A stretch of 64,000 nt of DNA, from NCBI GenBank assembly GCA_036277115.1, contig DASUNM010000021.1, positions 434,001 to 498,000 on the forward strand. Reading direction: 5' to 3'. Shown here one piece after another: positions 11,461-43,436 of this stretch. The position numbers and the translations under genes were made by a program. Source of the stretch: Pyrinomonadaceae bacterium (GTDB lineage: Bacteria; Acidobacteriota; Blastocatellia; Pyrinomonadales; Pyrinomonadaceae). The first letter of the stretch is position 1, and every line of letters starts with the position of its first letter. The notes under the pieces were generated by a model. That model was not told the origin of the DNA. It was given only the letters and a program-made list of their open reading frames with translations, and ran no database searches.

Positions 11461-11540
11461 GGGGCATTAGCCCGTCTGTCAGGGAGAGCTCCAACTGTGC
11501 GACTTACTGAGCCCTCCCTGACGGTCGGGCTAGTGCCCCG
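11461..11540. repeat. AGCCCGAC / GTCAGGGAG long inverted repeat
   Basis: Arms of about 31 bases (11461-11491 and 11509-11540) pair with only a few mismatches, including GGGGCAYTAGCCCG and GTCAGGGAG. The loop is about 17 bases. It begins 8 bases after the CPBP gene stop and precedes the RNase P promoter, and could act as a transcript end, though no T-run follows directly. Confidence 0.8.
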
Positions 11541-11595: not shown

Positions 11596-11604
11596 TGCTA
11601 TAAT
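11596..11604 (+). promoter_or_regulatory. extended -10 promoter of RNase P RNA
   Basis: TGCTATAAT is a perfect extended -10 (TGnTATAAT), ending 15 bases before the first base of the P1 helix. There is no good -35 at 16-18 bases, as is common for extended -10 promoters. Confidence 0.65.
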
Positions 11605-11655
11605 CATCGAGCCTTGCATGAGAGCAGGTCGGGCGGTCGCTGCTTCGGTTTCAAA

Positions 11656-11687
11656 GTCTGATTTCAGATCTAAGATTTGAATCAGAC
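11656..11687. repeat. palindromic insert in RNase P helix P3
   Basis: GTCTGATT (11656-11663) pairs with AATCAGAC (11680-11687) around AGATCT-type words. It lies inside the stem formed by CTTCGGTT and AATCGAAG, which I assign to P3. It lengthens that helix rather than disrupting the core. Confidence 0.75.
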
Positions 11688-11831
11688 GCGAATCGAAGGA
11701 GAGGAAAGTCCGAACACCAGAGGGCAGCGAGCCCGCTAACGGCGGGGCGGCAGCTTCGGATTCAAGAATTCATTCAAGATTCCAAAGCTGACCGACGACA
11801 AGTGCAACAGAAAACAGACCAGCCGGCGGCA

Positions 11832-11861
11832 AGTCAGATTTTGAGATCTCAGATCTGAGTC
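11832..11861. repeat. GATCTSA-word palindrome in RNase P RNA
   Basis: TGAGATCTCA (11842-11851) is a perfect 10-base palindrome flanked by AGATT and AGATCTGAG words. It sits between two conserved core segments, so it is a peripheral hairpin extension. Confidence 0.7.
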
Positions 11862-12001
11862 CGCAGGTGATGGGTGAAACGGTGCGGCCGAAAGGCTAAT
11901 CTCAGGTTTCCGATTTGAGAGAGTAAGAGCGCACCGGCGCGTGTGGTGACATGCGCGGCCAGGCAAACTCCTCGCGGTGCAAGACCAAATAGGGAAGCAT
12001 T

Positions 12002-12033
12002 TGAGATTTCAGATCTCAGATCTGAGATTTCAG
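12002..12033. repeat. GATCTSA heptad-word hairpin in RNase P RNA
   Basis: TCAGATCT and AGATCTGA (12009-12016, 12018-12025) pair perfectly around one base. The outer GAGATT and GATTTC continue the stem imperfectly. Read linearly it is an array of 7-base words: GAGATTT, CAGATCT, CAGATCT, GAGATTT. Confidence 0.8.
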
Positions 12034-12113
12034 TGGGGTTGCCCGCCCAAGGCTTCCGGGTAGGTCGCTGGATCCAATCGGCAACGGTTGGGCTAGAGGA
12101 ATGATCGCCCTTC

Positions 12114-12161
12114 CGCTTTCAGATTTGAGATCTCAGATCTGAAATTTCAAATCTGAAAGCG
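12114..12161. repeat. long GATCTSA-word hairpin near the RNase P 3' end
   Basis: A perfect 15-bp stem (12114-12128 with 12147-12161; CGCTTTCAGATTTGA on the left) encloses GATCTCAGATCTGAAAT. It is the longest of the RNase P inserts and shares its words with the others. Confidence 0.85.
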
Positions 12162-12294
12162 GGAGACAGAATTCGGCTTACAGACTTGCTCTCATTGCAT
12201 CGGCATTTTCCTCGTACTGCTTTGTTTGCTTCTTATCGTCTGAGTGCGGCTATTTCCGAGTTCGATCAGCCTGGAATGAAGGAGCCCCCAACCA

Positions 12295-14273: not shown

Positions 14274-15257
14274 TTAATCTGGCTTAGCTCCATCTCCGCA
14301 AGCAGAGAGGGGGTTGGGGGGAGAGGTTGGCGGCTGCGCAACCCCACCCCAAGCCCTCCCCGCTTGCGGGGAGGGGCTATCGGTTAACGAGCCCACAATC
14401 GCCGGCGTTATGTCCGCGAGCGAGGTGATGCGTGCCGAAATGCATTCCTTGTTGGCGCCCCAAAAGATTGTCGGGACGGCGTTGAGCGTGTGGCTCTTTG
14501 TCGATAGGTCTTCAATGTTGCCGTGATCGCTCGTCAGGATAATGGTCGTCGTCTGTAAATCCAGTTGTCCAATGAGACGGCGAATCATCCGGGCCAGATT
14601 CTGCAGTACGAGCCTCGCCGAAGTCATGTCCTGAGCGTGGCCGACCTTGTCGGTGATGAAGTATTCGAAAAGTGTAAATCGATGGTCCGCGACGACGGAT
14701 GCGAGAACGTCGGCTGCTTGTTCGGGCGTGCGAGGTTCAACGTCTTCGCCGCGTTCGAGTAGTTGGCCGTTAGTGAAGTCCTGGTACACCGCGCGGCCGG
14801 CCCTCAGGTCATCGACGGTATTGAAACTCAGGCCGGCTGCTTCGACTGCAGCCGTCGTCGCTGAGATCCATCGTGGACGACTCTCGAAGAAACGCCTGGT
14901 ATAAGTGTTTGCGAAAGTAATCGGAGCGACTCCCGCGCGCTTTAGCTGCAAGAAAATCGAATGCTCACGAATTATTTCAAGCAGCGCGGCGTTCGGAAAG
15001 CCCTGCTTGTGGTGGCCTATCGCTGCCGGCGCGTTAATCCCTGTGAGGATCGTCGTTTGACCGGACGCGCTTTGCGGTCGGCCTTCTACGCCTAACCGCG
15101 AGTCGGTCTCAACTAAGACGCCGTCGAACGGAATTCGCGCCTGTTCGTCTTGAAAAATCGCCAACGGCTCAGCATCCGGCAACCCATCGAGCGGGTTGTG
15201 CGGCCCGCGCGTGCCGATGCCGAGTCCGTCAATGAAGAAGAGCAGAACATTTTCCAT
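14274..15257 (-). CDS. iPGM/alkaline-phosphatase-superfamily metalloenzyme
   Basis: This 327-residue predicted two-metal hydrolase or mutase has FFIDGLGIG (first metal Asp, about residues 7-15), SGQTTILTG with a candidate nucleophile Thr, DKVGHAQDM, TSDHGNIEDLS and SHTLNAVPTIFWG. The last two match the metal motifs of cofactor-independent phosphoglycerate mutases and phosphopentomutases, but the protein is shorter than iPGM and the substrate cannot be assigned. The last 33 or so residues (after AIVGSL) are encoded by a GC-rich repeat and are Pro/Gly/Ser-rich, an acquired tail. The start codon lies inside another repeat (ATGGAAAATG word). Confidence 0.75.
   Translation of the reverse strand: MENVLLFFIDGLGIGTRGPHNPLDGLPDAEPLAIFQDEQARIPFDGVLVETDSRLGVEGRPQSASGQTTILTGINAPAAIGHHKQGFPNAALLEIIREHSIFLQLKRAGVAPITFANTYTRRFFESRPRWISATTAAVEAAGLSFNTVDDLRAGRAVYQDFTNGQLLERGEDVEPRTPEQAADVLASVVADHRFTLFEYFITDKVGHAQDMTSARLVLQNLARMIRRLIGQLDLQTTTIILTSDHGNIEDLSTKSHTLNAVPTIFWGANKECISARITSLADITPAIVGSLTDSPSPQAGRAWGGVAQPPTSPPNPLSACGDGAKPD
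14287..14376. repeat. CCCTCCCCGC palindromic repeat in the 3' end of a gene
   Basis: Arms of about 30 bases (14293-14330 and 14338-14370), with GCAAGC/GCTTGC and GGTTGGGG/CCCCAAG, pair imperfectly. Inside lies a perfect hairpin, CCCTCCCCGC-TTG-CGGGGAGGG. It is read through in frame by the metalloenzyme gene and gives its C-terminal tail. A shorter relative is at 29852-29872. Confidence 0.75.
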
Positions 15258-15361
15258 TTGTCATTTCACATTTTCCATTTGCCATTCCCGAATCGCGGGC
15301 ACTCGCGCCCAGCCGATTAGAAATGAGAAAATATTAAATGCCAAATGAGAAATGGAAAATA
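15248..15361. repeat. CATTTNN heptad-word hairpin
   Basis: The left arm (15248-15287) is CATTTTC, CATTTGT, CATTTCA, CATTTTC, CATTTGC. The right arm (15320-15361) mirrors it with GAAATGA, CAAATGA, GAAATGG. The centre contains CCCGAATCGCGGGC. The metalloenzyme ATG (15257, minus) is part of the first word, and the other end lies 3 bases from the stop of the sigma-54 activator gene. A second copy of the family is at 20942-21058. Confidence 0.88.
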
Positions 15362-15364
15362 CTC

Positions 15365-16750
15365 CTATCTTTCTTCTTCCTGAAGAAGTCCCTTGGCCCG
15401 ATACGCATTTAATTTGTTGTGCAGCGTCTTTAAGCTGATGCCGAGCATCTCCGCCGCCCGCGTCTTGTTATTGCCCGTCTTGTCGAGCGTGCGCAGAATC
15501 ATGTGGCGCTCAATTTCATCCAGGGGCGTGCCCACCGGAAACGTAACCGTATCTTCGGACCGTAACCGCTGCCGCTGATCAAACGGATATGGCGTGAAAT
15601 GATGCCGCTCGATTTGTTCACCCGAGCAAATCACGACGGCACGCTCGATGACGTTGCGCAGCTCGCGGACGTTACCGGGCCACGAATGAAATTGTAGAGC
15701 GTCGAGTGCCGCCGGGCTAATGAATCGCGCCGGTCGATCATGTTTGGCGGCCAGCCGCGTCACGAGATGTTGCACCAGAAGCGGCAGATCTTCGAGCCGT
15801 TCAGCCAAACGCGGCAGATGAATCGTGATTACGTTCAAACGGTACAGCAGGTCTTCACGCAGCGTCCGATCACGAACAGCTGTATGCGGGTCGCGGTTGG
15901 TCGCAGCAAGAATGCGAACATCAACCGAGATGTCCTTTCGACTACCAAGCCGATGCAGGACGCGTTCTTCAATCACACGGAGCAGCTTTGCCTGCAGTAG
16001 TGTCGGCATTTCGCCGATTTCATCGAGCAGGAGGGTGCCGGTGTTTGCCAGCTCGAAACAACCGTGTCGCCGCGCCACCGCGCCGGTGAAAGCTCCTTTT
16101 TCGTGGCCGAACAACTCAGACTCCATCAACGTGTCCGGAATGGCCGAGCAGTTTATGGCGAGAAACGGTGCATCGCGCCGCGGACTCAAATTGTGAATTG
16201 TCCGGGCCACCAACTCTTTGCCCGTGCCGGATTCGCCTGTGATCAGCACCGAAGCCGACGACGACGCAACCTGTTCGATCAAGCGATAAACCTGCTGCAT
16301 CGCTTCGGAACTGCCGACCAGTTCTCCGAACGCGCCCCGGTCGCGCAATTCTCGTCTTAGTAACTCGTTTTCGCGTCGTGCTTCAGCGAGTTCCACCGCG
16401 CGCTCGAGCACCGGCGTCAGTTTCTCGACTTCGACTGGCTTGTTGAAATAATGGTAGGCGCCCTCATCCTGAATCGCGCGCAGCGCGGTTTCCACCGAAC
16501 TGGCTTCGCCCGCCACAATTATCGGCGTGTGCGGGTGGTTGACGCGGATTTCGCGCAGGGCCGCGAATGCCTCACCGTCGGTCGGAATGGTGTCGGTGAT
16601 GATTACCGAGGGCGAAAATGTCTCGGCGACTTTGATGCCGGAAGCGTTGTTTGGTTCGGCGAGGACTTCGTAACCAAGCACCTTCAACTGATCGCGCAAA
16701 GCATGCGAAGAGTTTCGGTCGCTGTCGATGATGAGCACGCGGCCTTTCAT
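15365..16750 (-). CDS. NtrC-family sigma-54-dependent response regulator
   Basis: This 461-residue activator has an N-terminal receiver domain (acidic Asp9/Asp11, phosphoacceptor Asp53, Lys104), a AAA+ domain with Walker A GESGTGKE (172-179), intact GAFTGA (219-224) that contacts sigma-54, and a Fis-type C-terminal HTH (NKTRAAEMLGISLKTLHNKL). It should open promoters used by the RpoN encoded at 5174-6775. No sensor kinase gene adjoins it, so its partner is unknown. The ATG at 16750 is preferred over a TTG at 16774 because the receiver fold begins directly with KGRVLIIDSD. Confidence 0.92.
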   Translation of the reverse strand: MKGRVLIIDSDRNSSHALRDQLKVLGYEVLAEPNNASGIKVAETFSPSVIITDTIPTDGEAFAALREIRVNHPHTPIIVAGEASSVETALRAIQDEGAYHYFNKPVEVEKLTPVLERAVELAEARRENELLRRELRDRGAFGELVGSSEAMQQVYRLIEQVASSSASVLITGESGTGKELVARTIHNLSPRRDAPFLAINCSAIPDTLMESELFGHEKGAFTGAVARRHGCFELANTGTLLLDEIGEMPTLLQAKLLRVIEERVLHRLGSRKDISVDVRILAATNRDPHTAVRDRTLREDLLYRLNVITIHLPRLAERLEDLPLLVQHLVTRLAAKHDRPARFISPAALDALQFHSWPGNVRELRNVIERAVVICSGEQIERHHFTPYPFDQRQRLRSEDTVTFPVGTPLDEIERHMILRTLDKTGNNKTRAAEMLGISLKTLHNKLNAYRAKGLLQEEER

Positions 16751-20017: not shown

Positions 20018-20935
20018 ATGCTAACTCGCAGCGCGCTGCTTTACCTCGCCCGTCAGGACAAACTCAAAGATTTCGCCGCGCGTTTCGCGGCGTTCAGAAA
20101 GATCACCGCACGGTTCATCGCCGGCGAAACGGACGACCAAGCCGTGGCCGCGATCAAGGAACTTAACGCGCGCGGATGTTCCGCCTCGTTCGATCACCTG
20201 AACGAATCCGTCGATAGCGTCGCGGAAACCGAAGGCGAAGTGCGTGAGTATCTCAACGTGCTTGCGAAAATCGACGAGTCACATATCAACTCGAACGTCT
20301 CGATCAAGCTGACCCAGTTCGGCCTCGATATCGATCCGGAACTGGCCTATCGCAACGCGCGTGCAGTCGTCGCCGACGCCGCCCGGCGCGGCAACTTTGT
20401 GCGCGTCGATATGGAGAGCTCAGCGGTTACTCAGATTACGATCGATATCTTCAAGCGGCTGCGCAGCGAATTTGGTCTGAATGACGTGGGAATAGTTTTG
20501 CAGTCGTACCTGCGGCGGACCTACGACGACGCGCAGGACTTGTTAAAGATTCCGGCACGTATACGCATCTGCAAAGGCGCCTACAACGAGCCCCCCGAAG
20601 TTGCATTCCCAGACAAGAAGGACGTGGATGAAAATTATGTGCGGGTGATGAAACTTCTGCTCTCCAGCGGCACCTATCATGGAATCGCCACCCACGACCC
20701 GCACATGATTAACGCCACGATTCGCCACGCGCGCGATCAGGGAATCGGCAAGGAAGCTTTCGAGTTTCAGATGCTTTACGGCATCCGCCGCGATTTGCAG
20801 GAGAAACTGGCGCGCGACGGGTATAATATGCGCGTCTATGTGCCATACGGTAAGCACTGGTATCCGTATTTTATGCGCCGGCTCGCGGAACGTCCGGCAA
20901 ATATTTGGTTTGTGATGAAGAACCTTTGGAAGTAG
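20018..20935 (+). CDS. putA: proline dehydrogenase (monofunctional)
   Basis: This 305-residue FAD enzyme oxidises proline to pyrroline-5-carboxylate and passes electrons to the membrane quinone pool. The length is that of the short, single-function PRODH of Gram-positive bacteria, Thermus and related lineages. Diagnostic segments are SIKLTQFGLDID, VRVDMESS, LQSYLRRTYDD, RICKGAYNEP and the FAD/substrate region FQMLYGIRRDLQ followed by RVYVPYGKHWYPYFMRRLAERPAN. The pyrroline-5-carboxylate dehydrogenase is not in the window. Confidence 0.93.
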   Translation: MLTRSALLYLARQDKLKDFAARFAAFRKITARFIAGETDDQAVAAIKELNARGCSASFDHLNESVDSVAETEGEVREYLNVLAKIDESHINSNVSIKLTQFGLDIDPELAYRNARAVVADAARRGNFVRVDMESSAVTQITIDIFKRLRSEFGLNDVGIVLQSYLRRTYDDAQDLLKIPARIRICKGAYNEPPEVAFPDKKDVDENYVRVMKLLLSSGTYHGIATHDPHMINATIRHARDQGIGKEAFEFQMLYGIRRDLQEKLARDGYNMRVYVPYGKHWYPYFMRRLAERPANIWFVMKNLWK

Positions 20936-20941
20936 AAAGAG

Positions 20942-21058
20942 CATTTTCCATTTGGCATTTAACATTTTCCATTCCCGCTGACAGGAGGGACCGGCACCAA
21001 TTCAAGACGCAACTTAAAATGCCAAATGACAAATCAGAAATGACAAATGGAAAATGGT
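20942..21058. repeat. CATTTNN heptad-word hairpin
   Basis: The left arm (20942-20975) is CATTTTC, CATTTGG, CATTTAA, CATTTTC, CATTCCC. The right arm (21015-21058) is the reverse-complement set AAAATG, CCAAATG, ACAAATC, AGAAATG, ACAAATG. It begins 7 bases after the putA stop, and the space between the arms is unrelated to that of the 15248 copy. Confidence 0.88.
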
Positions 21059-21092
21059 CATGCTGTCCTTCGCGACTTCGAGCACTTAACCC

Positions 21093-26762: not shown

Positions 26763-26845
26763 ATCTCTGAGGTCCTCTGTGCCTCTGTGGTGAAAGAAGG
26801 ATCGTTTACCACAGAGACACAGAGAACCACAGAGGCGCCACAGAG
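26763..26845. repeat. CTCTGTG-word hairpin
   Basis: The left arm (26763-26792) holds CTCTGAG, CCTCTGTG, CCTCTGTG words. The right arm (26807-26845) holds ACCACAGAG, ACACAGAG, ACCACAGAGG, CCACAGAG. Word spacing is 8-10 bases. It fills the gap between the glycosylase and amidotransferase genes and ends 1 base before the stop of the latter. Confidence 0.85.
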
Positions 26846-29851: not shown

Positions 29852-29939
29852 CCCTCTCCCTTTGGGAGAGGGTTGGGCGTGGCACAGACTTTAGTCTGTG
29901 TTTTCGCCGGATGAATTCACAGACTGAAGTCTGTGCCAC
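29852..29939. repeat. two adjacent palindromic repeats between nuoM and nuoN
   Basis: The first, CCCTCTCCC-TTT-GGGAGAGGG (29852-29872), is a perfect 9-bp hairpin related to the repeat at 14287-14376. The second has 22-base arms (29879-29900 and 29918-29939) of the CAGACT family also found at 7498-7576, with one mismatch between the arms; each arm is itself palindromic. The 29940-30000 remainder shows nothing else. Confidence 0.88.
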
Positions 29940-36161: not shown

Positions 36162-38432
36162 TTAGGCGACGGCTCGTTTACCCAATTTCCCATCGACCGT
36201 TATCTGATACAACGGTGAAACCAACACACTCTCGGGTTTGGGGTTACCGGCCGCCAGCAAATGAAACTGCGGCACCTTTTCGGTCAGCGTTCCAAGCTTG
36301 AAGAGCTCGTGGCCAACTTCGGGCGTCAGCTGCTCTTTGTTTGCCGTTTCATCCATCGCTTCGACTGCGGCGCGGATCGTTGAGAAATCGTTTGATAGTT
36401 CGCGCTGTGCCGCAATCGCGTGTTTCACCTGAACCGGGTTACTTTCATCCTTCAACAACGGATAACGCAGACCTGAATATGAAGGCACGCGCTCTCCGAT
36501 TTCCCGGAACACTGCGCTGGCCGACATTTCAAAACCGAAGTCCACGCCGAGTTCTCTGGCCAACTGCGCCGCAATCAGCCAATCGGCTTTCGATTGATGA
36601 AGGGGTTCGATGGCTTTCCGCACGCGTTGCACGAATCCGTCATTGTTGGTAAACGTGCCGTCAACTTCGGCATATGAAGCAGCAGGGAAAACGACGTCGG
36701 CGTATTCGCCCGCCGCGGTCAGGAACAATTCCGAGAGGACGATGAATTCGCAATTCGGAATAAGACCCGCGTCGCCCGCGACGTTCGTCAAAGGCGTGCC
36801 CGCCAGAATCATGGCGCGAAGCGATTCGCTACGAAGCAATTCAACGCCCTCTTTGCCATCCCTCATCATGTCGAGCGCGCCGACGCTGTTGTTGTAGAGC
36901 GGCAGCGGATGCAGCAGCACACGGCGGTCTTCGCCACCTAACGTGTACGGCATTTGTGCAACGACAGCCTGGGAGGCGCCGCTGAGTTCGGCGCCAAACA
37001 TAATGATCACGTCGCCCTGTGTATCGGTAATCGCTTTGCGTGCGGCTTCGATCTCGGCGGCGTCGACATCCATCTTGCGGCTTGCCAGGAGCTCATCGCT
37101 TGCGTTCGCCAATGCGAGCACGGCTGCGTCTTCACTGCCGGGGCGAAGGTGAATGAATTGCGAGGCCTGTTCGCGCAAACGTATGCGGACGCTGTTGATG
37201 AGAATTAATTGCGCGCCGCCGTTGCGGACCGCCTGGCGAATCTGTTTTCCGGTAAGCGGCTGTAACTCTTCCGGCTCGCCGCCAATCAACACGATCGTCT
37301 TCGCATAACGAATGTCGCGATGTGTAGCCAGTGGTCCGCCCAGATTGTCGAAGAACGGCTTTAACGAAAAGGCATCAGAGATTCCGTAATTCTCAGTTCC
37401 GATGGCTTCCGTGGCCAACTTGCGCAGCGAATAGAGCGCTTCATTCGTCAGCCGCGGACTGCCAAGCACGCCGATCGAATTAGCGCCGTGCGTTTGCTTG
37501 ATTTCGCTGAGGCGCCGGACTGCGAAGCTCAACGCTTCATCCCAGGTTGCGGGAATCAGCTTTCCGCCTTTCTGGTGGCGAATCAGCGGCGTGCGAATGC
37601 GTTCGCTATGATCGATGAAGGGGTGTCCGAAGCGGCCTTTGATGCAGAGGAACTCGCCGTTTAATCCGTTCACGTAACGATCGCGCGCGACGACGCGGAG
37701 CACCTCGGTCCCGCGCGAGCCGATCGACAACTGACAGCCATCCGAGCAGAAGTTGCATGTCGAAACGTTTTGATTGAGTTCCCACGGCCGCGCCTGATGC
37801 CGATAGGTTCCGTCCAGCAGGGTGCCCGTGGGACAAACTTCAATGCAGTTGCCGCACTGTGAACAATTCAGCCAGCCGCCATAAGTGCCGATAACCGTGT
37901 GCGCGCCGCGATTGCCGGCTTCGATCGCCTGCTCGCCCATCCACTCGTCACACACGCGCGTGCAGCGTTTGCAAAGAATGCACCGCTGCGGATCGTTCGC
38001 CACCATCGGCGAAAGATATTTTTCCGGATGATAATTTTTCTGTTCGGTGAAGCGCTCTTCCAGGTTTCCCCAGTCAAAAGTCTGCTCCTGTAGCTCGCAT
38101 TCGCCACCGCGATCGCACACCGGGCAATCGAGCGGATGGTTCGCGAGCAGAAACTCGAGCATCGAGCGTTGGGCTTTCTGAATCTCTTCGCTCTGGGTGG
38201 TGACAACCATGCCATCGGTGCAGATGATCGTGCAGGAGGTTTGCAGCTTCGGCATCTTCTCGATGCGCACCAGACACATGCGACACGACGCCTGGAGAGC
38301 GAGATCCGCGTAATAGCAGAACGACGGAATATCGAACCGGTTGTCGCGGCAGACGTCGATCAGGCGTGCGCCTTTCGCGACCTGAAAGTCCGCGCCGTTG
38401 ATAGTGACCTTTATTGAGTCTGATTGATCCAT
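36162..38432 (-). CDS. nuoG: NADH-quinone oxidoreductase subunit G
   Basis: This 756-residue Fe-S subunit of the complex I peripheral arm has an N-terminal [2Fe-2S] ferredoxin-like domain (CYYADLALQASCRMC), a HxxxCxxCxxxxxC [4Fe-4S] site (HPLDCPVCDRGGEC), a ferredoxin-type CILCKRC...CSQCGNCIEVCP pair, and a full molybdopterin-oxidoreductase-like C-terminal region (from about residue 218). The ATG (38432-38430) lies inside a CATTGGRT-word repeat. It belongs to the operon between nuoF and nuoH. Confidence 0.95.
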   Translation of the reverse strand: MDQSDSIKVTINGADFQVAKGARLIDVCRDNRFDIPSFCYYADLALQASCRMCLVRIEKMPKLQTSCTIICTDGMVVTTQSEEIQKAQRSMLEFLLANHPLDCPVCDRGGECELQEQTFDWGNLEERFTEQKNYHPEKYLSPMVANDPQRCILCKRCTRVCDEWMGEQAIEAGNRGAHTVIGTYGGWLNCSQCGNCIEVCPTGTLLDGTYRHQARPWELNQNVSTCNFCSDGCQLSIGSRGTEVLRVVARDRYVNGLNGEFLCIKGRFGHPFIDHSERIRTPLIRHQKGGKLIPATWDEALSFAVRRLSEIKQTHGANSIGVLGSPRLTNEALYSLRKLATEAIGTENYGISDAFSLKPFFDNLGGPLATHRDIRYAKTIVLIGGEPEELQPLTGKQIRQAVRNGGAQLILINSVRIRLREQASQFIHLRPGSEDAAVLALANASDELLASRKMDVDAAEIEAARKAITDTQGDVIIMFGAELSGASQAVVAQMPYTLGGEDRRVLLHPLPLYNNSVGALDMMRDGKEGVELLRSESLRAMILAGTPLTNVAGDAGLIPNCEFIVLSELFLTAAGEYADVVFPAASYAEVDGTFTNNDGFVQRVRKAIEPLHQSKADWLIAAQLARELGVDFGFEMSASAVFREIGERVPSYSGLRYPLLKDESNPVQVKHAIAAQRELSNDFSTIRAAVEAMDETANKEQLTPEVGHELFKLGTLTEKVPQFHLLAAGNPKPESVLVSPLYQITVDGKLGKRAVA

Positions 38433-38483
38433 TGGGTCATTGGATCATTGATTCAATGAATCAATGAACAAATGAATCAATTC
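38430..38483. repeat. TCATTGGA 8-base-word hairpin between nuoF and nuoG
   Basis: Words CATTGGGT, CATTGGAT, CATTGATT, then CAATGAAT, CAATGAAC, AAATGAATC meet at a perfect central palindrome, ATTGATTCAATGAATCAAT. The nuoG ATG and the nuoF TGA (38479-38477) both lie inside it, so this repeat is the entire junction. Confidence 0.85.
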
Positions 38484-39757
38484 TTTAAAATGTGCTTCTC
38501 AAAATCTTCGGGAAACCTCTTGATCGCCGACTGTATCGGCCAGGCGGCAGCATCGCCGAGCGGGCAGAACGATTTGCCCTCGATGTTGTCGCAAAGATCC
38601 AGAAACAACTGGATATCGCCGTCGCGGCCGCCGCCGTTTTCAATCCGTTTGAAAATCTTCACCAGCCAATCGGTGCCTTCGCGACACGGTGTGCACCAGC
38701 CGCACGATTCGTGTTTGTAAAACTCAGTCAGGTTCTTCGTCGATTCAAACACATCGACCGTTTCGTCCATCACGATGAAACCGCCTGAGCCGACCATGGA
38801 GCCGCCCGCGACCAGCCCTTCGTAATCCATGCGCACGTCTTTCCCGATAATCTGATCGGCACGCATGATGTAAACGGATGAGCCGCCGGGAATCACGGCC
38901 TTCAACTGTTTGCCATTAGAAATTCCGCCACAGTCTTCCATGATGAACTTTTCCATGTCGTCATAGCCCATCGGCAATTCGTATACGCCGGGCCGATTGA
39001 CGTGACCGGATACCGACCAGAGCTTCGTGCCGCCACTCTTTTCCGTGCCGAGCTTCTGATAGGCCTCGCCGCCCATCGTGATGATGTCCGGCACGGCCGT
39101 GAGCGTCTCGACGTTGTTCACCACCGTGGGTGATGCGTACAAGCCAGAGACCGCAGGGAAGGGAGGTTTCATCCGCGGATGCCCCCGATATCCTTCGAGC
39201 GAACTGAGCAGCGCCGTCTCTTCACCACAAATGTAAGCGCCCGCGCCGGTGTGCGTGTAGATTTCGCTGGAGAAGTTCGTGCCGAGAATGTTTTGCCCGA
39301 GCAATCCCGCCGCCCGCGCTTCGTCCAACGCCACATCCATGATGTCGATCAGGTACTTGTATTCGCCACGTGTGTAGATGTAGTTCGTCTTTGCGCCGAG
39401 CGCGTACGCCGCGATCAGCATGCCCTCAATCAACATGTGCGGATCGCGTTCCATCAGATAGCGATCCTTGAACGTGCCGGGCTCAGATTCATCGGCATTG
39501 CAGACGACGTACTTGGGCTTCGGTGAATCTTTCGGAACGAAACTCCACTTCATGCCCGTCGGAAATCCAGCGCCACCCCGGCCGCGCAACTGCGACTTCT
39601 TAACCTCGTTGATGACGTCGTCCGGCGACATGGAATCGAGGGCTTTCTTGAGCGCTTCATAGCCGCCGTTCGCACGATACACGTCGAGCGAATGCGAGTT
39701 CTCGAGATGAACTCGCCGCAGCTGAAGAGGTTCACATCCGATGGCGCCGATAAACAT
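38477..39757 (-). CDS. nuoF: NADH-quinone oxidoreductase subunit F
   Basis: This 426-residue NADH- and FMN-binding subunit of complex I has the NADH/FMN loops [14 protein letters not shown] and [31 protein letters not shown], and the [4Fe-4S] site [12 protein letters not shown] with the distal Cys in KSFCPLGD. The length and order are normal. It acts with NuoE and NuoG as the electron-input module. Confidence 0.96.
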
Positions 39758-39763
39758 GCTTTT

Positions 39764-39824
39764 GTCAGTTGTCAGTAGTCAGTAGTCCGTCGCTACAACT
39801 GACGACGGACAACTGACTACTGAC
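39764..39824. repeat. GTCAGTN heptad-word hairpin between nuoE and nuoF
   Basis: Left: GTCAGTT, GTCAGTA, GTCAGTA, GTCCGTC (39764-39791). Right: CAACTGA, CGACGGA, CAACTGA, CTACTGA, C (39796-39824). The arms pair almost perfectly with a 4-base loop. It ends 4 bases before the nuoE stop. Confidence 0.92.
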
Positions 39825-39828
39825 ATTC

Positions 39829-40359
39829 TCAGGGCAATGAATCGAGAATCTGATCAACCTTCTCAGTCGTTAGGTTCTCGTGAAAGTCAAAATTCACCTG
39901 GAACATAGGGGCCGTGCCGCACGAGCCGAGGCACTCAACCAAAGACAATGAAAACTTTCCATCCGCCGTCGTCTCACCGGGTTTGATGCCCAGCTTTTGC
40001 GAACACTGTTCGGTAATCTTGTCCGCGCCAAGCAGCTTGCACGAGAGTGTCTTGCAAACCTGAATGTGGTACTGGCCGATTGGCTTCGTGTGCAGCATCG
40101 AATAGAAGGTCGCAACTTCCCAGATGTCCGTGATGCGCAGACTGAGCCGATTCGCCAGGTAGGAAACGCCCGGGCCATCCAGATAGCCGCGCTCGCGCTG
40201 GACGATAAACATGATGGGCAGAATCGCGGAACGTTTCGATGGATACTTCGCCAGATGCCAATCAATTTCCGCTTCCACTTCCGGCGAAAACACCGCCATC
40301 TCGCCGGACATTTTCACCGGTTGATAGAGTGGCTGAATGTTAACTAGCTCGGTCGTCAT
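39829..40359 (-). CDS. nuoE: NADH-quinone oxidoreductase subunit E
   Basis: This 176-residue thioredoxin-like [2Fe-2S] subunit of complex I carries its four ligands in VCKTLSC (Cx4C) and CLGSC (Cx3C). The N-terminal helical part KRSAILPIMFIVQRERGYL is typical. It lies between nuoD and nuoF in the operon, each side separated by a heptad-word repeat. Confidence 0.95.
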   Translation of the reverse strand: MTTELVNIQPLYQPVKMSGEMAVFSPEVEAEIDWHLAKYPSKRSAILPIMFIVQRERGYLDGPGVSYLANRLSLRITDIWEVATFYSMLHTKPIGQYHIQVCKTLSCKLLGADKITEQCSQKLGIKPGETTADGKFSLSLVECLGSCGTAPMFQVNFDFHENLTTEKVDQILDSLP

Positions 40360-42912: not shown

Positions 42913-42923
42913 AACTAAATCCA

Positions 42924-43001
42924 GGTTTCGAGTTTCGAGTTTCGGGTTTCGAGTTAAGCCGCTTTCGACGAACTTGAAACTTGAAACTTGGAACGTGAAA
43001 C
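42924..43001. repeat. GTTTCGA heptad-word hairpin overlapping the end of nuoA
   Basis: Left: GTTTCGA, GTTTCGA, GTTTCGG, GTTTCGA, GTT (42924-42954). Right: AACTTGA, AACTTGA, AACTTGG, AACGTGA, AAC (42971-43001). The right arm and centre are translated as the NuoA C-terminus, and the TAA (42956-42954) lies at the inner edge of the left arm. Confidence 0.92.
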
Positions 43002-43436
43002 AGCGGCATCTAATAAGCGAGCTTCCGCTTCAGCCTCGCGGCGCGCGCGCTCGCCCCAATCAAGCGCGCCCTTCTTGATCACATAAACCAAACCCGCCGC
43101 AAGCAGCGTGATAAAAATGATCATCTCGAAGAAAATCAGATTAGCCAGTCCGTACTGTGGCGATGAGAGCGTGCGGAACACCACCGCCCATGGAATCAGA
43201 AAGATGACTTCAATATCGAACAGGATGAAGATCATCGCGATCAGGTAGAACTTAACCGAAAAGCGTTCACGGGCTGAGCCGACCGGGTCTTTGCCGCATT
43301 CATAGGGCATCAATTTTGTGCGCGTGCGCTTGCGCTGCCCGACAAGCTGCGACAGCCCCACCATCGTCACCGCGAAACCGGCGGCGACGACGAACATGAG
43401 AAGCACGGGTAAGTAGTCAGCTAGATTGAAACTCAT
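42954..43436 (-). CDS. nuoA: NADH-quinone oxidoreductase subunit A
   Basis: This 160-residue, three-helix complex I subunit is first in the operon. It has the signature [43 protein letters not shown], begun near residue 44. The family usually ends about 25-40 residues earlier. The last 15 residues ([12 protein letters not shown] region) are encoded by the heptad-word repeat and so are an acquired tail. Confidence 0.95.

Follow-up and report, generated by a model that had tools for sequence, protein, structure and literature searches.

The stretch of DNA analysed here (the window, 64 kb in length) comes from a soil acidobacterium in or near the genus UBA11740 of GTDB (Acidobacteriota, Pyrinomonadaceae) and contains rnpB, the gene for RNase P RNA. 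Positions 11621-12196 match the class A family RF00010 with 253.3 bits and an E value of 2.4e-81, the family cut-off being 100 bits; the match covers model positions 1-367 and is complete at both ends. All the core segments (GAGGAAAGUCCG, ACAGAAA, GGCAAAC, CAAAUAGG and ACAGAAUUCGGCUUA) are present in the conserved order, with high posterior probability in the RF00010 alignment, and the gene is found once in the 4.85 Mb assembly (100% complete, 0.12% contamination). An RNase P RNA of 574 bases, with its core in order, had been placed at 11620-12193 in the initial annotation, and both the identity and the size (576 nt by the RF00010 match) agree closely with our results. A consensus scan of the surroundings of rnpB revealed neither a standard -35/-10 promoter pair nor an intrinsic terminator; a probable -10 element is given in Table 1, together with the outer limits of the gene.

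The genes for the protein subunit, rnpA, were detected in all seven genomes of the genus and a HARP-type protein RNase P (PF08745) in none of them, thus the RNA is probably essential. On the strength of its complete core, we consider this rnpB to encode a normal, functioning RNase P RNA of class A, predicted to cleave pre-tRNA, whose variable outer helices are enlarged. Its 576 nt compare with about 440 nt in related families, a gain of about one third, and the RNAs across the genus range from 510 to 624 nt. Genes of this size could be missed by annotators or assigned wrong bounds.

Heptad inserts in the outer helices

Relative to the Rfam consensus, the additional sequence is confined to P3, P9, P12, P13, P16/17 (J16/17) and P19. 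All of these are variable peripheral helices and the core is complete, as expected from the proposal that inserts occur only where additional length is tolerated. The word from which the inserts are built is a degenerate tandem heptad, RATYTSA; words of seven bases had been recognized before, although their earlier description as GATCTSA fits them less well. Since the reverse complement, TSARATY, is the same repeat in a shifted phase, any tandem RATYTSA array is nearly self-complementary, and each such array forms a hairpin alone.

Table 1. Coordinates of rnpB, its probable -10 element and its enlarged helices; fold z compares the stability of the folded insert with that of shuffles
Feature	Position	Strand	Remarks	Fold z
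TATAAT, probable -10 element of rnpB	11599..11604	+	also 5' of rnpB in relatives	
rnpB, class A	11611..12200	+	outer limits by inspection of P1; P1 pairing reaches ~11613 and ~12199	
P3 extension	11651..11688	+	insert vs RF00010; apical words GATTTCA GATC..GATTTGA	-5.25
P9 extension	11746..11797	+	41 nt vs 6 in RF00010	-3.89
P12 extension TCAGATTTTGAGATCTCAGATCTGA	11833..11862	+	insert vs RF00010	-2.6 (moderate)
P13 side hairpin	11896..11922 (approx.)	+	words AATCTCA..GATTTGA	-1.79 (weak alone)
P16/17 side hairpin	12002..12034	+	P16 5' strand to P17; 31-nt insert	-4.07
P19 extension	12110..12167	+	five consecutive words; stem ~25 pairs	-8.53

The word hairpins reported initially at 11656-11687, 11832-11861, 12002-12033 and 12114-12161 correspond to the inserts in P3, P12, P16/17 and P19, that in P13 having been overlooked. 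The related stem noticed near 11751-11790 is the P9 extension, a looser heptad variant of the ATTCAAG/ATTCCAA type (ATTCAAG...ATTCAAGATTCCAA) without a single exact RATYTSA word. Thus, up to six variable outer helices carry inserts, P9 only in this looser form. The P16/17 hairpin is composed of four consecutive words, GATTTCA GATCTCA GATCTGA GATTTCA. When folded, the inserts in P3, P9, P16/17 and P19 were far more stable than their shuffles, and the P13 insert is on its own unconvincing in this species; in L032 and L034 P13 is clearly a word hairpin.

Filled and empty helices among relatives

The rnpB genes of about 60 related genomes were cut at conserved anchors and compared helix by helix. 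(In five genomes, G007, G010, G025, G035 and G036, the rnpB match was absent or partial under fast filters, which may reflect larger inserts or missing contigs.) RATYTSA words occur in rnpB of all seven members of the genus, which form one clade in the rpoB tree (98/99), but the helices that carry them differ. Every one of the seven has words in P3 and P12, those in P12 of L033 being eroded. The P12 palindrome is nearly identical in L032, L034, L035 and L024, indicating that it was inherited. Words occupy P13 in L001, L032, L034 and L035, the helix being short in L033 and L036. On the 5' side of P16/17 they occur in L001 and L032, with L034, L035 and L024 empty there. P19 contains them in L001, L033, L034, L035 and L036 and is short in L032, L024 and L041. 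In L036 and L041 words lie on the 3' side of P16/17, in an additional hairpin that is also present, but of unrelated sequence, in other genera.

The sharpest contrasts are those between the closest relatives. G001 and G003 (L032 and L034) are sisters in the rpoB tree (97/98), and their states are reciprocal: P16/17 filled and P19 short in the former, P16/17 empty and P19 filled in the latter. L041 and L090, very alike elsewhere, also show opposite states at P17 and P19. Not every such difference need be a separate gain. The P19 word helix could be ancestral and then lost in L032 and L024, and the P16/17 inserts of L001 and L032, which are of equal length, could represent one gain followed by several losses. 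Outside the family, words were found in P3 (G056, G044) and in P3, P12 and P17 (G057); the rnpB genes of most relatives are devoid of them.

Pairing of the inserts as RNA

G-U and A-C oppositions were counted in the best stem of each insert, found with a score that penalizes both equally. They should be equally frequent, composition allowed for, if the DNA palindrome alone mattered. In the stems of 52 rnpB inserts we found 87 G-U and 24 A-C (expected ratio 1.3, p 2e-6), counts that come from related genomes and hence are non-independent; for inserts of the genus only, the numbers were 49 and 12. In contrast, 42 arrays outside rnpB, 17 from this genome and 25 from G014, G020 and G034, gave 31 G-U against 40 A-C (Fisher p 2.9e-6 relative to the rnpB inserts). 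The excess of G-U over A-C in rnpB, absent from the outside arrays, shows that selection acts on the rnpB inserts as RNA and keeps them as paired helices.

Matching of G and C at the S position was considered as further proof of selection on the RNA, and was abandoned because the effect shrank with a wider control. The initial difference (89% in rnpB, 47% in other arrays, p 6e-6) was obtained with three long pure tandem arrays in the control; when these were removed and arrays of other genomes added, p rose to 0.015, and to 0.075 when P12 was also left out.

Conserved pairing would fit retention of the inserts and their cutting alike. It is possible, though we find it doubtful, that the inserts resemble the intervening sequences (IVS) of 23S rRNA, with RNase III cutting the long hairpins and leaving a fragmented but functional RNA. 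P19 is long enough for this, both here and in L036, L088, L090 and L100 (31-38 paired columns), and rRNA intervening sequences provide a known parallel (PMC4990558, PMC6191907). Most of the other inserts, however, comprise 10-16 pairs, which is short for RNase III. Such cutting is compatible with the explanation that we prefer and set out below. In both cases, additional sequence lies in variable helices of an essential RNA and is present or absent between relatives, but 23S rRNA IVS (e.g. in Coxiella) are larger, in many cases contain an ORF, and are cut out by RNase III (PMC4990558), as the longest rnpB inserts might be.

Dispersal and origin of the arrays

Within the window, runs of two or more consecutive RATYTSA words are confined to rnpB, so intergenic arrays of exactly this class lie beyond it. 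Genome-wide, overlapping three-word matches number 84 on the forward and 82 on the reverse strand, the reversed control pattern giving 0. At least 19 arrays outside rnpB could be placed among the matches listed in this genome; the majority are intergenic, and several lie no more than 4-6 bases from a stop codon, as after the genes for a PDZ protein, an SLT protein and TatC (L121, L132, L133). A few touch gene ends, e.g. the C-terminal tail of an RsfS gene (L118). Two of the 21 arrays of at least three words, again among the matches listed, fall within a single gene of 576 bases, rnpB, which is a strong concentration. Long pure runs outside rnpB include one of nine GATCTCA units. RATYTSA arrays are also present in 37 of 60 relatives. 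The reversed pattern is almost absent, and the word is common to Pyrinomonadaceae and a few other acidobacteria.

The content of words in rnpB correlates with the number of arrays in the genome (Spearman 0.64 over 49 genomes, kinship uncorrected). Load alone does not fill rnpB, since G020 and G034, which have the most arrays of all, possess almost word-free rnpB genes. As a comparison structured RNA, tmRNA of the genus contained no RATYTSA array; rRNA, considered as a second one, was dropped, just a partial 23S being available in one relative. The earlier suggestion that a word class of intergenic regions had entered rnpB is thus sustained in part, by the genome-wide dispersal of the same class, the filled and empty helices of close relatives and the correlation above.

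Periodicity of seven bases is not restricted to this word. Tandem Repeats Finder reported 28 rows for the window, 22 of them with a period of 7, 14 or 21 and with diverse units (GTCAGTA, CAAAGTA, CATTTGC, AAATGAC, GTTTCGA, GTTACAA and others). Identity at lag 7 was 0.44 in word helices, and eight of the window's heptad regions gave 0.52. Many of the window's repeats form long hairpins in which inverted tandem arrays of heptads make up the arms, as at 905-1085, 15240-15370, 20930-21065, 38420-38485, 39755-39835 and 42915-43010; their words (CAAAGTA, CATTTGC, AAATGAC, ATTGATY, GTCAGTA and GTTTCGA) share the period and not the sequence. A long inverted repeat of the CTCTGTG/CACAGAG type lies at 26765-26834, and a nearly perfect stem, GTGGCACAGACT..AGTCTGTGCCAC, at 29879-29939.

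The explanation that we favor, with a probability of roughly 0.7, is that the outer helices of rnpB have repeatedly gained, lost and re-lengthened RATYTSA arrays, that these arrays grow in 7-base steps, and that their pairing as RNA is kept. Arrays would arise and lengthen by replication slippage or by fold-back copying of hairpins, seven bases per step, in a process acting genome-wide on many words. New arrays in coding sequence would mostly be lost. Those in rnpB that form a clean fold on the end or flank of a peripheral helix would spare the catalytic core and so survive, and their base pairing would be maintained, since an insert that misfolded would damage an RNA the cell needs. More speculatively, these genomes may possess a mechanism indifferent to sequence, for instance the fold-back copying of hairpins, that produces DNA hairpins with arms growing by seven bases per step. 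Its action would be recorded in rnpB, where arrays are kept only if they fold well as RNA too; RNase P RNA would then pass through cycles of growth and trimming and might be fragmented at its longest hairpins. We offer this extended scheme only tentatively.

A different source of the arrays might be a small mobile palindromic element of the REP or MITE kind, perhaps moved by a RAYT transposase and inserted several times in rnpB. The dispersal of arrays among relatives agrees with such an origin, as do nine Y1_Tnp/RAYT matches in this genome, a weak correlation of RAYT and array counts (rho 0.37, p 0.03, 36 genomes, kinship uncorrected) and the position of some arrays (L123, L131) between the arms of another REP-like hairpin. 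However, the arrays have no constant ends and no GTAG/CGTC-type tag, they vary in length, and no target duplication was seen in the filled and empty pairs. The correlation has clear exceptions: where RAYT matches number 13 and 16, array matches number zero or one, and one genome without RAYT has five; the case for RAYT as the driver of the arrays is accordingly weak. Long pure tandem runs, such as that of nine GATCTCA units, resemble the products of slippage. Moreover, the window is full of period-7 arrays built from many other words, hence slippage in 7-base steps is a better fit than transposition. Such an element is thus an unlikely source, and of the initially supposed invasion the occurrence of the same word in dispersed arrays remains, without the moving element. 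We prefer local growth in 7-base steps, slippage itself being what we infer from the period alone.

The short dispersed palindromes between genes are shared with REP/RAYT elements (PMC3733652), from which the RATYTSA arrays differ in having no tag, fixed ends or fixed length; nor does their number clearly follow that of RAYT. Just 5' of rnpB, at 11462-11540, lies a REP-like inverted repeat, agcccgtctgtcaggga...ccctgacggtcgggct; the hairpin enclosing the arrays of L123 and L131 is like this one.

The possibility that the helices had merely been long since early in the lineage, with AT-rich palindromic words as the end-state of drift in such stems, must be weighed helix by helix. Indeed, many relatives have P9 and P12 of the same length built from unrelated sequence without heptads, which is the observation that had been named in advance as contradicting repeat insertion. 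For these two helices the expansions may be old, with the words arriving later. P13, P16/17 and P19, on the other hand, uphold repeat insertion, as they pass from short to long within the genus and between sisters, and their long forms are nearly always word-built. Long word-free helices of relatives have no hidden heptad period (lag-7 identity 0.26), and the same words, unlike their reversed pattern, form arrays outside rnpB. Early expansion is thus disfavored for P13, P16/17 and P19, and as a general account it appears quite improbable. A sequence-specific role of the heptads, e.g. as sites for RNA- or DNA-binding proteins recruited to rnpB, would accord with the spread of one degenerate word over the family and beyond, but is most improbable, given that each of the P13, P16/17 and P19 inserts is unconserved even between sisters and that rnpB of most relatives is without the word.

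The presence of heptad arrays within rnpB has a precedent. Short tandemly repeated repetitive (STRR) sequences are reportedly present in rnpB of heterocyst-forming cyanobacteria. These are heptanucleotide tandem repeats, found also elsewhere in the genome, that lengthen a peripheral helix; they differ between close strains, are reportedly dispensable for in vitro activity and apparently entered independently. The acidobacterial inserts resemble them in the tandem unit of seven bases, the copies elsewhere in the genome, the peripheral location and the variability between close relatives. The RATYTSA inserts may not be needed for catalysis, as sisters do without them at a given helix. In cyanobacteria a single helix, P12, is affected and the repeats are not known to be self-complementary, whereas here up to six helices are involved and the heptad is its own complement. 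Heptad repeats in rnpB are already known; the present case is a richer one of that kind, with a self-complementary word, many helices at once and filled and empty states in close relatives. The literature searched contained nothing that links RNase P to repeats of Blastocatellia or to palindromic elements of Rickettsia.

Degenerate heptads in intergenic arrays have also been described as GGGAATC in Xanthomonas and GGGGAYT in Nostoc; those of Xanthomonas often occur as inverted pairs, potentially forming stem-loops, and the heptad arrays differ in length and sequence between close species (PMC4692102). The same source, in the part considered here, regards bacteria as rich in heptameric repeats and proposes polymerase slippage at seven bases (PMC4692102). 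Common descent of RATYTSA with the cyanobacterial repeats is unlikely, the Nostoc heptad being a different word. Besides, the Xanthomonas and Nostoc heptads are G-rich, discussed as G-quadruplexes and, in that part of the source, not placed in structural RNA (PMC4692102), while RATYTSA is AT-rich and palindromic.

RNase P RNA of this genus thus provides a second case of heptads lodged in this molecule, richer than the first and far from it in phylogeny, and 7-base periodicity of repeats genome-wide is indicated in Pyrinomonadaceae. The helix-by-helix differences between sisters make it possible to ask by what route repeats get into an essential RNA, which of its helices can bear added length, and whether an insert is then seen by selection as RNA; to judge from the G-U and A-C counts, the answer to the last is that it does. 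Heptads next to rnpB were also encountered. G034 (L177), where three-word matches number about 90, has a RATYTSA array, TCAAATCTCAGATCTGAAATC, directly 3' of its almost word-free rnpB, and in a genome of another acidobacterial family, G325 (L167), heptad runs border the gene on both sides (agagttaagagttaag and agagttcagagttcag), the RNA itself being without RATYTSA words.
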